Below are positions 4,670 through 62,519 of a stretch of 64,000 nucleotides of DNA, in pieces. Location of the stretch: assembly GCF_001422045.1 (NCBI RefSeq), contig NZ_LMLW01000008.1, positions 376,501-440,500 on the forward strand, read 5' to 3'. Position 1 is the stretch's first letter. Every line of letters begins with the position of its first letter. The notes beneath the pieces are model-generated. The model did no database searches, was not told where the DNA came from, and was given only the letters and a program-made list of their open reading frames with translations. The DNA is from Sphingomonas sp. Leaf242 (lineage in GTDB: Bacteria; Pseudomonadota; Alphaproteobacteria; Sphingomonadales; Sphingomonadaceae). A program made the position numbers and the translations under genes.

Positions 4670-4987
4670 TCACTTGCTCGTGGCAGGCGCGACCGGCCGT
4701 TCCTTTTTCTTGTACATCGCCAGCATCCGCGCGGTGACCGCGAAACCGCCGAAGATATTGATGCTCGCCAGCACGACCGCGAGCAGCCCGAGCGCCTTGG
4801 CGACGCCCGATCCGGCGCCGATGCCGGCCGCAGCGGCGGCAATCAGCGCCCCGACGATGATGACCGAGGAGATCGCATTGGTCACCGCCATCAACGGCGT
4901 GTGAAGCGCCGGCGTCACCGCCCAGACGACGAAATACCCGACGAAACACGCCAGCACGAAGATCGACAGGATCGCGATAAAGTCCAT
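4670..4987 (-). CDS. pntAB: NAD(P) transhydrogenase subunit alpha, part 2
   Basis: This 105-residue membrane protein begins [18 protein letters not shown] and holds three or four hydrophobic helices. It corresponds to the membrane part of the alpha subunit, which is a separate gene in many alphaproteobacteria. The ribosome-binding site GGGGAGGA, seven bases before the ATG, is formed by the outer end of the inverted repeat that bounds the DUF559 cassette. It lies one base after the DUF559 stop codon. The protein completes the proton channel together with pntB. Confidence 0.93.
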
Positions 4988-4988
4988 C

Positions 4989-5441
4989 TTATTCCTCCCC
5001 GGCACGGGGAGGGGGACCGGCCGCAGGCTGGTGGAGGGGGCTGGCCGCGGACGATACGATCATCGTCACCACGGCCTCGATATCCCTCAGCACGTCGCCT
5101 GCTGCCACTCGCAACACCCGGTGGCCATTCTGTTCAAAAAACTGATCGCGATCGGCGTCGCGTTGGGGACGGTCGCCGCGTCCGTGAAATTCGCCATCTA
5201 CTTCGACCGCGAGCTTGGCGGCGGCGCAGTAGAAGTCGCAGACGTATGGACCGATGGGATGCTGGTGGCGGAACTTGACGCCGGTTTTCTTTCCCCGGAG
5301 CTGCTCCCATAGCAGCACTTCCGGGAGGCTCATTTCGCGCCGCAATTTGCGCACCAGCGATACTTCTGGACGTAGCGTGTGCGGGACGCCCCCTCCACCG
5401 GCTGCGCCGGTCCCCCTCCCCGTGCCGGGGAGGATTATCAT
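4989..5441 (-). CDS. DUF559 endonuclease-like protein inserted in the pnt operon
   Basis: The frame encodes 150 residues. Residues 35-125 match the DUF559 family (Vsr/PD-(D/E)XK-like fold): [18 protein letters not shown], then [16 protein letters not shown] and [10 protein letters not shown] with the acidic D...ExD pattern. About 25 N-terminal and 18 C-terminal residues are encoded by the flanking inverted repeats. The ATG overlaps the pntA stop (ATGA) and its TAA ends one base before the pntAB start, so it is perfectly nested in the operon. The true start could instead be a GTG or later codon beyond the repeat. DUF559 proteins are thought to be DNA-processing enzymes, but no activity is established. 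Confidence 0.88.
4994..5040. repeat. Family J: DUF559 cassette terminal inverted repeat, pntAB side
   Basis: About 46 bp reading cctccccggcacggggag and then a G-rich run ending in gtggaggggg. It is an imperfect inverted copy of 5387-5434, and its outermost 20 bp are themselves a small hairpin (CCCCGGCACGGGG). On the minus strand its end gives GGGGAGGA, the likely ribosome-binding site of pntAB. Confidence 0.9.
5387..5434. repeat. Family J: DUF559 cassette terminal inverted repeat, pntA side
   Basis: This is the inverted partner of 4994-5040, with about 90% identity between arms by eye. It starts four bases beyond the pntA stop codon, in the 3' flank. Short AAT triplets occur on the outer side of both arms and could be a 3-bp target duplication, but that is too short to be sure. 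Confidence 0.88.
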
Positions 5442-6559
5442 GCCAGCAGCCTTGGGTTCACGATCTTGCCGCCCTGCGTAAGGCGAATCGCGTCGCCGAT
5501 TTCGGCGTCGAGCACGGGCTTGCCCGCCTCCTTGTCCCAGAAGGCGTTGAGGAAGTTGTACAGGTTGCGTGAGAACAAGGCGCTGGCATCCGCCGCCAAT
5601 CGAGACGACACGTTGCGATGGCCGACGATCTTCACCCCGTTCACCACGACCACTTCGCCCGCGACCGAACCTTCGACGTTGCCGCCCTGTTCGACCGCGA
5701 GATCGACGATCACCGAGCCCGGCTTCATGCTTGCGACCTGCGCCGCCGAGATCAGACGCGGTGCGGCGCGTCCTGGGATCAGCGCGGTGGTGATGACGAT
5801 GTCCTGCTTGGCGATATGCCCCGAGACGAGCTCGGCCTGCGCAGCCTGGTATTCGGGCGACATCTCGCCGGCATATCCACCCGTTCCCTCGCCTTCGATC
5901 CCGGCGACGTTCTCGACGAAGATCGGTTTCGCACCCAGTGACTGGATTTGCTCGCGAGTTGCCGCGCGCACGTCGGTCGCCGACACCTGAGCGCCGAGCC
6001 GCCGTGCGGTCGCGATTGCCTGGAGTCCGGCGACGCCGACGCCCATCACGAACGCCTTGGCCGCGCTGATCGTGCCCGCCGCGGTCATCATCATCGGAAA
6101 CGCGCGGTCATATTCGGCGGCGGCGTCGAGCACCGCCTTGTACCCCGACAGGTTCGATTGCGACGACAGGATATCCATCGACTGCGCGCGCGTGATCCGC
6201 GGCATGAATTCCATCGCCAGCGCCTCGTACCCCGCCGCGGCATAGGCGTCGACGCGGGCGCGCTCTGCAAATGGATTGAGGCTCGCGACGATCCACACCC
6301 CCGGGGCGACCCCGTCCAGCGTTGCAGGATCAGGTCCCTGCACCCCGAGCACGATCTCCGCACCCGCCAGCGTCGCCGCACGATCGCCGACCGATGCGCC
6401 CGCATCGGCGTACGCGGCATCGGCGATCGAAGCCGCCTCGCCCGCCCCCGCCTCGACCGCCAGCGTCGCGCCCAGCGCGATGAACTTCTTGACCGTTTCC
6501 GGCGTCGCGGAAACCCGCCGCTCGCCGTCCGCTTGTTCTTTCAGGACGGCGATCTTCAT
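5438..6559 (-). CDS. pntA: NAD(P) transhydrogenase subunit alpha, part 1
   Basis: This 373-residue soluble domain I of the transhydrogenase binds NAD(H). It begins MKIAVLKEQADGERRVSATP, typical of the alanine dehydrogenase/PntA N-terminal domain. VGVAGLQAIATARRLGAQV is the nucleotide-binding GxGxxG-like turn and GYAGEMSPEYQAAQ is the family signature. In enteric bacteria this part is fused to the membrane segment; here, as usual in alphaproteobacteria, that segment is a separate gene, with a DUF559 cassette between the two. The start lies five bases after the small upstream gene. Confidence 0.96.
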   Translation of the reverse strand: MKIAVLKEQADGERRVSATPETVKKFIALGATLAVEAGAGEAASIADAAYADAGASVGDRAATLAGAEIVLGVQGPDPATLDGVAPGVWIVASLNPFAERARVDAYAAAGYEALAMEFMPRITRAQSMDILSSQSNLSGYKAVLDAAAEYDRAFPMMMTAAGTISAAKAFVMGVGVAGLQAIATARRLGAQVSATDVRAATREQIQSLGAKPIFVENVAGIEGEGTGGYAGEMSPEYQAAQAELVSGHIAKQDIVITTALIPGRAAPRLISAAQVASMKPGSVIVDLAVEQGGNVEGSVAGEVVVVNGVKIVGHRNVSSRLAADASALFSRNLYNFLNAFWDKEAGKPVLDAEIGDAIRLTQGGKIVNPRLLA

Positions 6560-12478: not shown

Positions 12479-13362
12479 GCCGGGCATTGGCGGTCTTTCC
12501 ACTGGTCGAACGGGCTGGTGCCGAGTGCGTGCCCCATCGGGCCGTGCCCTGCGCCCAGCCCCGGTGCGCTGGCAAGTGCGGCGCGGACGAACGCGATGGC
12601 GCGCTCGATTGCGGCGTCGAGCGGCAGGCCCTGGGCGAGGCCGGTGGCGATGCCGCTGGCGAGCGTGCAGCCGGTGCCATGCGCGTGGCGGGTTTCGATG
12701 CGGGGGTTGGTCCAGCGGCTTTCGCCGGCGTTGGTGACGAGGCGGTCGGTGATGTGGGGGCCTTCGGCGTGGCCGCCTTTGACGAGGACGGCTTGGCCGA
12801 GGGCGCGGATTGCGGCTTCCCCGCCGAGCGCTGCGAGTTCGGGGAGGTTGGGGGTTACGAGCGTGGCGATCCGCATGAGGCGGGTGAAGGCGGCGATCGT
12901 GTCGCTGTCTGCGAGGACCGAGCCGGAGGTGGCGATCATCACCGGATCGAAGATGATGGGGAGTCTGCTCCCCCCCCTGGAAGGGAGGGATTGGGGGTGG
13001 GTTGGCTTGGGGCTGGTGTCGCGCTCGCGCAGCGGCCTACCCACCCCCGGCCCCTCCCTTTCAGGGAGGGGGGAAAGGCGTTCGAGATATGCGGCGACGG
13101 CGTTGGCGGTTTCGGCCGAGCCGATCATGCCGATCTTTACGGCGTCGATGCCGATGTCCGAGACGACGGAGTCTATCTGCGCGAGGACGATCTCGGTCGG
13201 GATCTGGTGGACCGACTGCACGCCGAGCGTGTTCTGTGCGGTGATCGCGGTGACGGCGGTCATTGCGTGGCCGCCGAGCATCGTCACGGTCTTGATATCC
13301 GCCTGGATGCCGGCGCCGCCGCCCGAGTCGGAGCCGGCTATTATGAGGATTCTGGCGGTCAT
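12475..13362 (-). CDS. thiD: hydroxymethylpyrimidine/phosphomethylpyrimidine kinase with a repeat-encoded insertion
   Basis: The enzyme phosphorylates HMP and HMP-P in thiamine synthesis. The ribokinase-fold motifs are present: ILIIAGSDSGGGAGIQAD at the N terminus, KIGMIGS, FDPVMIATSGS and HAHGTGCTLASGIA with the catalytic GTGC. The product is 295 residues against a usual 255-270. The excess is residues 97-131, a Pro/Arg/Ser-rich stretch encoded by an in-frame copy of palindromic repeat family B (12970-13074). It sits between a helix and the strand leading to FDPVM, away from the catalytic motifs. I chose the start MTARILIIAG. It overlaps rnhB by four bases. Confidence 0.94.
   Translation of the reverse strand: MTARILIIAGSDSGGGAGIQADIKTVTMLGGHAMTAVTAITAQNTLGVQSVHQIPTEIVLAQIDSVVSDIGIDAVKIGMIGSAETANAVAAYLERLSPLPEREGPGVGRPLRERDTSPKPTHPQSLPSRGGSRLPIIFDPVMIATSGSVLADSDTIAAFTRLMRIATLVTPNLPELAALGGEAAIRALGQAVLVKGGHAEGPHITDRLVTNAGESRWTNPRIETRHAHGTGCTLASGIATGLAQGLPLDAAIERAIAFVRAALASAPGLGAGHGPMGHALGTSPFDQWKDRQCPA
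12970..13074. repeat. Family B palindromic repeat inside thiD, in frame
   Basis: The arms CCCCCCTGGAAGGGAGGG and CCCTCCCTTTCAGGGAGGGG each contain a small hairpin, with inner arms TGGGGGTGGGT and ACCCACCCCC around a variable centre. Its length is 105 bp, an exact multiple of three, and no stop is made. Other copies are intergenic at 43875 and 62411. Confidence 0.92.
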
Positions 13363-17558: not shown

Positions 17559-17662
17559 CCCCTCCCGCCTGCGGGAGGGGTTGGGGGAGGGGCGTGCCTC
17601 ATAGACCGGACGCCGGTACGTACTTCGTCCCCTCCCCTAACCCCTCCCGCAAGCGGGAGGGG
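17559..17662. repeat. Family C palindromic repeat, copy 1
   Basis: The arms CCCTCCCGCCTGCGGGAGGG and CCCTCCCGCAAGCGGGAGGG flank a centre that shares CCGGACGCCGGTACGTAC with the copy at 55892 (one base differs). It fills the gap between the convergent aldo/keto reductase and POT genes and probably folds as a terminator-like cruciform in RNA. Confidence 0.9.
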
Positions 17663-43874: not shown

Positions 43875-44025
43875 CTCCCCTCCCTGGAAGGGAGGGGTCG
43901 GGGGTGGGTCGGCCAGCTTGAACCACTCGCGTTCCGGTATGCGGAAGCCAGTCCCCCCTTAGCCGCGCGCGTTCGAACTTGCGGAAGCCGACCCACCCCC
44001 AGCCCCTCCCTTCCAGGGAGGGGAG
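43875..44025. repeat. Family B palindromic repeat, copy 2 (long centre)
   Basis: The arms CTCCCCTCCCTGGAAGGGAG and CTCCCTTCCAGGGAGGGGAG, with inner GGGGGTGGGTCGGC and GCCGACCCACCCCC. The centre is about 40 bp longer than in the other copies and contains a second imperfect palindrome (GTTCCGGTATGCGGAAG / CTTGCGGAAG). Confidence 0.88.
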
Positions 44026-55891: not shown

Positions 55892-55996
55892 TCCCCTTCC
55901 GCTTGCGGGAGGGGTCGGGGGAGGGGTTAGCCTCATGGACCGGACGCCAGTACGTACGTCGGCCCCTCCCCTAACCCCTCCCGCAAGCGGGAGGGG
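55892..55996. repeat. Family C palindromic repeat, copy 2
   Basis: TCCCCTTCCGCTTGCGGGAG and CTCCCGCAAGCGGGAGGGGG arms; the centre has CCGGACGCCAGTACGTAC, nearly identical to the copy at 17559. This conservation of the middle, unlike in other families, is unusual. Confidence 0.9.
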
Positions 55997-62410: not shown

Positions 62411-62519
62411 CCCCTCCCTGGAAGGGAGGGGTTGGGGGTGGGTCGGGTTCCGCATGTTCCTGCGGTTGCGACCCGAGCCGGCCTACCCACCCCCGGCCCC
62501 TCCCTTTCAGGGAGGGGGG
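62411..62519. repeat. Family B palindromic repeat, copy 3
   Basis: CCCCTCCCTGGAAGGGAGGG and CCCTCCCTTTCAGGGAGGGG arms with TTGGGGGTGGGTCGG and CCTACCCACCCCCGG inside. It fills the gap between rsmB and rpe, six bases from the rsmB stop. Its sequence is close to the copy inside thiD. Confidence 0.92.

Follow-up and report, generated by a model that had tools for sequence, protein, structure and literature searches.

Our analysis indicates that the small DUF559 nuclease gene lodged in the transhydrogenase operon of Sphingomonas sp. Leaf242, together with the inverted arms that enclose it, is the nuclease-bearing member of a REPIN-type system, in which the nuclease would act on the arms and thereby drive or maintain the REPINs of the genome. 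We put the probability of this reading at about 0.57. Across the genus the nuclease clade and the arm class co-segregate, each DUF559 clade having an arm class of its own, and for the four classes tested the abundance of the arms is linked, with exceptions, to the presence of the cognate gene. Such matched families of nuclease and repeat suggest that the nuclease helps the repeats to spread or persist in bacteria where no RAYT (REP-associated tyrosine transposase) was found. In the mechanism that we propose, the DUF559 nuclease would recognise the folded arm, with its hairpins and tag, and nick it, and nicking would either drive the copying of REPINs to new sites or maintain them, as RAYT is thought to do. 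The DUF559 gene itself would be a resident source that seldom moves, with classes E and A2 as possible exceptions. Below, the window is the whole stretch of 64,000 nucleotides that was analysed, and the genome to which it belongs (G000, 4.3 Mb) is called the window genome.

The element in the transhydrogenase operon

The DUF559 gene lies between pntA1 and pntA2 (Table 1) and fits there without a seam, just as an earlier note on this DNA had described: its start codon shares bases with the pntA1 stop (ATGA), and its TAA falls one base short of the pntA2 ATG at 4985-4987. The terminal inverted repeats that the same note had placed between the two pntA parts are real, but their length is about 70 nt with a variable middle rather than about 46 nt. 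Over 37 nt, the complementarity between the inverted arms (4985-5021/5406-5442) is 92%, and a second inverted pair, 5027-5058/5371-5402, is 78% complementary. Read towards the gene, the order within an arm is an outer hairpin, H1 (CCTCCCC..GGGGAGG), a second hairpin, H2 (ACC-variable-GGT), and the G-rich tag GGTGGAGGGGG, and each window arm folds as two DNA hairpins (z -3.8 and -2.8). A chance inverted repeat was ruled out, since the best inverted-arm score at the window element is 39 compared to a maximum of 15 in 386 window controls, and since matches to the arm core in the genome exceed those to the reversed pattern (see below). The minus-strand motif GGGGAGGA lies 5 nt ahead of the pntA2 ATG, and, as judged from the sequence, the arm plausibly supports expression of the operon through it. 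This support could be a side effect, since nearly all listed class A arms end in GGGGAGGA. The closest named record to the DUF559 protein is from Sphingomonas sp. PP-CE-3A-406 (98% identical).

Table 1. Features of the DUF559 element and its operon, REPINs of the window, and REPINs lying in frame elsewhere in the window genome.
Feature	Position	Strand	Basis or remark
DUF559 (Vsr-like PD-(D/E)XK) nuclease gene, 150 aa	4989..5441	-	PF04480 E 2.3e-26; first and last codons within arms
pntA2 (PNTB_4TM), operon neighbour	4670..4987	-	PF12769 E 1.5e-33
pntA1 (AlaDh_PNT), operon neighbour	5438..6559	-	PF05222/PF01262
GGGGAGGA, possible ribosome-binding site of pntA2, within H1	4993..5000	-	by eye
Outer hairpin H1, arm adjoining pntA2	4994..5012	+	sequence, inverted-repeat comparison, folding
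Variable hairpin H2, arm adjoining pntA2	5016..5032	+	sequence, folding; covariation
G-rich tag GGTGGAGGGGGC, gene-proximal, arm adjoining pntA2	5030..5041	+	sequence; tag also in the genome's REPINs
Inner extension of terminal repeat, pntA2 side	5041..5062	+	common to gene-less REPINs; overlaps coding end
Outer hairpin H1, arm adjoining pntA1	5415..5433	-	sequence, inverted-repeat comparison, folding
Variable hairpin H2, arm adjoining pntA1	5397..5411	-	sequence, folding
G-rich tag, arm adjoining pntA1	5388..5399	-	sequence
Inner extension of terminal repeat, pntA1 side	5367..5388	-	overlaps N-terminal coding part
Class E arm-core inverted pair (REPIN)	12982..13059	.	cognate DUF559 elsewhere in genome, L003
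Class F arm-core inverted pair (REPIN)	17571..17650	.	cognate DUF559 L001
Class E arm-core inverted pair (REPIN)	43889..44011	.	
Class F arm-core inverted pair (REPIN)	55905..55984	.	
Class E arm-core inverted pair (REPIN)	62423..62505	.	
In-frame class A REPIN, window genome (L031)	C8:521422-521535		
In-frame class A REPIN, window genome (L026)	C11:263189-263321		
In-frame class A REPIN, window genome (L030)	C1:171982-172095		

H2 is conserved in structure and not in sequence. The facing positions of 82 distinct H2 inserts comprise 363 Watson-Crick, 41 wobble and 16 other combinations, and swapping the halves among inserts of equal length gives 50% Watson-Crick. In a set of 27 equally long inserts, pairing is seen in 99.5% of cells compared to 82% after shuffling, and 38 cells are double-changed compared to 12.8, a signal that is lost in slid versions; neither the count of H2 pairs showing a double change nor that of pair types exceeded the shuffles (304 and 356 of 500 as high).

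A canonical G-quadruplex motif is found on the strand reading towards the gene at 94 of the 152 DUF559 loci, all classes taken together, and on the opposite strand in 15 upstream and 13 downstream flanks of these loci. As a background, the motif was counted in 14 of 790 stretches of the window and in 9 of 600 outer-flank stretches. The canonical G3+ motif is frequent in classes C, D, E, F, F2 and G, where it is made up of the second half of H1 and the tag. The arms of classes A, A2 and B mostly lack it (present at 6 of 57 loci), and in classes A and B the H2 hairpin occupies the place of the short middle loop of the G-quadruplex. A canonical G-quadruplex as a universal arm feature was thus rejected, and so was a known Rfam RNA, the only match having an E value of 0.57, well under its gathering score. 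G-quadruplex capacity may be what the enzyme sees, which we offer simply as an idea.

The motif on the gene-facing strand would also suit a Vsr-like enzyme that processes mismatches or hairpins, with the arms, by their hairpins and G-rich tracts, as its preferred trouble spots, kept near the gene for regulation or protection. The predicted Vsr-like fold agrees with such a repair role, as does the genetic link to a cytosine methylase that is described for Caulobacter VsrA, a DUF559 protein, in PMC12907096. We nevertheless hold it to be highly improbable: the arms of classes A, A2 and B mostly go without the motif, the window gene has pntA1 and pntA2 as neighbours and no cytosine methylase beside it, and a repair role by itself leaves the clade-specific, dispersed arm classes unexplained.

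Arm classes, gene-less copies and the cognate nuclease

Matches to PF04480 were found in 57 of 61 Sphingomonas genomes, 218 in all. Arm scoring, the tree, the class contexts and the G-quadruplex counts cover 152 of these copies, and a further 32 were classed, with somewhat looser A and A2 patterns, for the full class A list; the flank of one locus (L210) was too short to score. With the threshold placed above 15, the maximum of the 386 window controls, matched inverted arms are present at 136 of the 152 copies, the other 16 scoring 15 or less. The median score is 32 at DUF559 copies, 9.5 in the window controls and 12 in 400 mismatched locus pairs; direct-orientation scores also exceed 15 at 84 of the 152 loci, with extra REPs near some of them. 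The earlier note had expected DUF559 genes elsewhere to be flanked by the same arms, and this holds as far as the presence of arms is concerned, but the arms are the same only within a clade. The arm classes are regular expressions of our own making, which matched on both sides of 77 loci, on one side of 60 and on neither side of 15, with the tag pointing towards the gene in 214 of 304 flanks and away from it in 28. Among the five DUF559 copies of the window genome, L001, L003 and L004 score above 15 for inverted arms. L002 scores 15 or less and by eye has REPs on one side only, and L005, also at 15 or less, is a domain of a larger protein at which no REPs were seen by eye.

On a tree of the 152 DUF559 domains carrying ten labels (nine arm classes plus none), the arm label changes 21 times, compared to 106.7 times when labels are shuffled (0 of 200 shuffles as low). 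This tree rests on just 105 columns, and 26 of its 149 inner branches are starred; near-copies also inflate the label contrast, class B needs seven changes, and for these reasons we used arm abundance besides co-segregation. Co-segregation alone is also no proof of action, since the arms are physically linked to the gene and, for the most part, the two are inherited together in place.

The arm core, with up to 3 mismatches allowed, has 23 forward and 26 reverse matches in the window genome, compared to 4 and 2 for the reversed pattern. The 30 arm-match sites that we read are mostly inverted pairs with the tags inward and spacers of some tens of bases, and the class A pairs thereby have the structure of REPINs, described as two inverted REP hairpins with a short variable spacer (PMC8049555). 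They are also numerous and dispersed, with 39 class A, 50 class F and 94 class E arms in the genome. A consensus built from the innermost 22 nt of 30 gene-less REPIN arms also matches the inner ends of the class A gene-bearing elements (23 of 28 ends at p <= 0.05 against shuffles), and a bare REPIN therefore looks like both ends of the gene-bearing element joined. Gene-bearing and gene-less copies thus have their terminal inverted repeats in common, as expected of insertion sequences and MITEs. The window genome has arms of classes A, E and F and DUF559 genes labelled A, E, F and G; for class D it has no arms, and no class D gene is among its five DUF559 copies.

The five class E and F REPINs of the window have their cognate DUF559 genes elsewhere in the genome. 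Class A REPINs also lie in frame within apparent leuS, ligD and glyS genes of the window genome, the names being given by eye from translations. At the leuS site, which was readable in 12 of 30 leuS loci, there is a class A REPIN in G000 and G034 and an F-like REPIN in G058, G018, G024 and G022, and six other genomes are without a REPIN.

Class A arms number a median of 22 (2-122) in the 39 genomes that have an A/A2-clade gene, compared to 2 (0-17) in the 22 that do not (p 3e-9), and the reversed pattern has 40 matches over the same 39 genomes, 22 of them in G010. When genomes are divided by the full list of class A genes, the medians are 25.5 (2-122) in 34 genomes and 2 (0-110) in the 27 without (p 1e-7). 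The corresponding medians with and without the cognate gene are 18 and 0 for class D (17 and 44 genomes), 30 and 0 for class E (13 and 48) and 35 and 0 for class F (13 and 48), with p between 3e-7 and 4e-6 in gene lists that rest on 152 of the 218 copies, G047 having been added to E and G054 to F by tree position. All of these tests treat genomes as independent. The four genomes that have no DUF559 at all contain 1, 0, 0 and 2 class A arms. In a tree of the 18 genomes that have both locus sets, G005, which has an A/A2-clade gene, contains 12 class A arms and its sister G059, which has no such gene, contains 2; G053 has 48 compared to 5 and 7 in G022 and G031.

The exceptions go in both directions. 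At least 10 class A arms but no class A gene were found in 6 of 27 genomes (G025 110, G024 21, G026 21, G058 19, G044 16 and G023 15 arms), and in G025 a member of the clade is present with its flank cut by a contig end. At least 10 arms without a cognate gene found were seen in 6 of 44 genomes for class D (G022 71), 9 of 48 for class E (G018 209, G051 155, G058 129) and 10 of 48 for class F (13-30 arms), which may partly be due to DUF559 copies outside the 152. G058 is a true exception for class E, with all four of its DUF559 copies classified and none of them E; its sister G024 has a class E gene. Genomes with an A2 gene also have more class E arms (median 81) than those with a class E gene (30). 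In the other direction, 6 of the 34 genomes with a class A gene have fewer than 10 arms, fewer than 5 arms accompany the cognate gene in 3, 1 and 4 genomes for D, E and F, and G032 has an A/A2-clade gene but 2 class A arms, compared to 24 in its sister G029.

Genomes with many arms and no cognate gene found are what would be expected if another enzyme moves the REPINs and DUF559 landed in one of them, to be kept as a passenger or resident regulator for some host function. Gene positions that are conserved across the genus and purifying selection on the gene (below) are likewise expected of a host function. We regard this explanation as unlikely, though it carries real weight: each DUF559 clade is enclosed by a separate class of arms, four classes show a link between the abundance of arms and the cognate gene, and no other candidate enzyme came up in a search that covered Y1_Tnp alone. 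There is no match to Y1_Tnp (PF01797) in the window genome, on which ground RAYT was rejected as the mover there, and 57 of the 61 genomes have none, the remaining 4 having one.

Position, selection and fold of the nuclease gene

Among the examined DUF559 copies, 116 of 126 genome-class pairs have a single copy. For class A, which was fully listed, 23 of 34 genomes have one copy, 10 have two and 1 has three, and strict single copy therefore fails. A flanking gene is common to another examined copy for 120 of the 152 copies, contexts being judged by the similarity of short flanking ORFs so that some links may be missed. Classes C and G have one common context of 23 loci (one unlabelled), and F and F2 one of 19 (four unlabelled); class B has one context of 19 loci (one unlabelled) and one of 8, class D two of 7, and class A the pnt junction with 12 (one unlabelled). 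Loci of classes E and A2 lie in nearly as many contexts as there are copies (13 copies in 12 contexts and 8 in 7, e.g., L003, L211, L217, L129 and L108), and these genes may still be moving. The largest arm counts among the four classes counted are those of class E. A freely moving cassette as the main reading was rejected, since genes are few per class and mostly conserved in position. The small mobilisable gene cassette of the earlier note fits these counts less well than a resident gene does, with one to three class A copies per genome and most copies in common contexts; what is scattered is the gene-less pairs.

The gene lies between two arms that elsewhere make up a bare REPIN, which is also compatible with a homing-type element, where DUF559 would cut the gene-less REPINs of its class and be copied into them by recombination, the bare REPIN being the target. 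The predicted fold is close to that of I-Bth0305I, and the many contexts of classes E and A2 and the two or three class A copies in 11 of 34 genomes would agree with such movement. A homing element should, however, fill many bare REPINs, yet one to three genes are found beside tens of bare arms, and at the few sites compared no REPIN that is bare in one genome contains the gene in a relative. We consider homing quite improbable and retain the reading of a resident gene that would serve a dispersed population of REPINs.

Relatives without the DUF559 gene at the pnt junction do exist; the earlier note had named the same gene in every relative, with no empty site, as the finding that would speak against it. 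Thirty pnt loci were taken, one of which (L077) is without pntA1, and the element is present in 9 of the 29 readable loci, the window genome included, lying on either side of a PH-type gene in two of the nine. Six loci have just 23-65 nt between the genes. The junction of L089 (G054) has 82 nt with a lone hairpin and neither gene nor partner, possibly a remnant of the element. In five loci there is by eye a HicA/HicB pair, and the remaining loci have other inserts. When one example of each family was tested, HicA-like, HicB and PH matches were obtained, that of HicA lying below the curated cut-off (Hic pair of L067). Small inserts other than the element are seen in relatives such as L067, L068, L070, L075 and L082, and the pntA1/pntA2 junction seems to be a hot spot for them. 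In the 18-genome tree G024 and G058 lie beside G000 and G034, with G018 outside; G000, G034 and G018 have the DUF559 element at the junction and G024 and G058 a HicAB pair, the simplest reading of which is one loss or replacement of the element. No clean empty site with a target duplication was obtained, the pnt and leuS junctions of relatives being too diverged.

The DUF559 gene is under purifying selection. In eight close Sphingomonas (the window and seven of the eight nearest named loci, L255 being left out) the dN/dS of the core is 0.05-0.15, with dS up to 0.87 pairwise and 0.77 from the window. The arms of the seven relatives are 98-100% identical to those of the window although the gene core is 84-96% identical, and the arms would therefore appear to be held at the DNA level or homogenised with other copies.

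The AlphaFold model (18 rows) has a mean pLDDT of 75.5 and a pTM of 0.65; taken in blocks of ten, residues 31-130 reach 81-94, apart from residues 81-90 at 58. The fold of the predicted structure is that of a Vsr-like PD-(D/E)XK enzyme, the matches being 3hrl (Z 14.6), the catalytic domain of I-Bth0305I (3r3p_A, Z 13.5) and Vsr (1cw0_A, Z 10.8). Foldseek was run too; some mitoribosomal proteins, at Z 9 to 10, come close to Vsr. An endonuclease-like protein of Neisseria, 3hrl was also found by phmmer (E 1.7e-11). The residues that do not vary across 18 sequences include R58, H61, D69, E80, D82 and H86.

PF04480 was matched in 98 of 249 genomes of the phylum. Among 30 loci from the best-scoring genomes, inverted arms score above 15 in 17, two of them marginally (15.5 and 16), compared to 1 of 60 controls from the same loci, and some arms lie 100-200 nt from the domain. 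By distance the proportions are 1/1 in the genus, 3/3 in the family, 5/12 in the rest of the class and 8/14 in the rest of the phylum. The link to arms thus reaches beyond Sphingomonas but is not universal for DUF559, 13 of the 30 loci being without matched arms. The top arm score of this sample belongs to L338 (G231, another family of the class), with an inverted repeat of 101 nt. DUF559 proteins of Pseudomonadota could include a large group of REP-associated nucleases that have no relation to RAYT; these would recognise folded arms, with hairpins and a G-rich tag that can often form a quadruplex, and would produce or maintain REPIN populations of their own. We put this generalisation at slightly under even odds. 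Phages or plasmids as the usual home of DUF559 were rejected, the search (at 1e-10) having matched none of 50,697 phage records and 28 plasmid records out of 72,556.

Comparison with known systems

REPs and REPINs are common in bacterial genomes, and in the literature cited here the enzyme tied to them is the HUH-type RAYT. As described in PMC3116915 and PMC8049555, the repeats of REPIN-RAYT systems are dispersed, each repeat family has its own nuclease gene with that repeat adjoining, and RAYT genes are single-copy per repeat family and mostly vertically inherited, with repeats commoner where the gene is present. The DUF559 system is similar in its inverted hairpin doublets, which have a short variable spacer and are scattered over the genome, and in having a distinct nuclease gene per repeat family, apparently mostly vertical inheritance and repeats that are commoner with the gene. 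It differs in its enzyme, a predicted Vsr-like PD-(D/E)XK protein of the DUF559 family and not an HUH/Y1 transposase, in the G-rich tag, in having the gene inside the doublet, in the second, sequence-variable hairpin of class A and B arms, in the presence of more than one class A gene in 11 of 34 genomes and in the lack of Y1_Tnp matches in 57 of 61. The REP superfamilies of PMC3733652 have a GTAG or CGTC tag at one end of the palindrome; here, reading by eye gives GGTGGAGGGGG instead, both in the listed arms and in a consensus drawn from 30 class A REPIN arms.

Vsr and VsrA have the same predicted fold as the window protein, and VsrA the same Pfam domain as well. The window gene differs from them in having no methylase neighbour, and VsrA, in the available text of PMC12907096, is tied by experiment to DNA damage in cells without cytosine methylase and not to repeats. 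The catalytic domain of I-Bth0305I is similar to the predicted fold of the DUF559 protein, but the DUF559 gene is bounded by repeats that occur many times in the genome, and no intron or intein was noticed in passing. As with MITEs and their parent insertion sequences, the gene-less copies are the terminal inverted repeats of the gene-bearing element; unlike in those systems, gene-bearing copies are few and mostly conserved in position, the arms are hairpins and DUF559 is not a known transposase; the diverged junctions gave no target duplication. Rickettsia palindromic elements are inserted in frame in protein genes, and the class A REPINs within apparent leuS, ligD and glyS are like them by description.

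In the literature searched, which covered no bioRxiv preprints and few subscription papers, we found no paper linking DUF559 to REPs. The repeats described here have a population structure like that of REPINs, in a genome where the search found no RAYT, and each of their classes goes with its own clade of a nuclease whose fold is different. The family is still named a domain of unknown function, and two questions become testable in Sphingomonas, namely, the function of DUF559 and the ability of an unrelated nuclease to fill the role of RAYT. If the wider generalisation on DUF559 proteins of Pseudomonadota is true, one account would cover both what many DUF559 genes do and where GGGAGAGGG-type alphaproteobacterial repeats come from, and REPINs would have evolved on at least two occasions, each with a different enzyme. 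The DUF559 system appears to work like REPIN-RAYT but is not a member of it, since the defining RAYT enzyme was not found.
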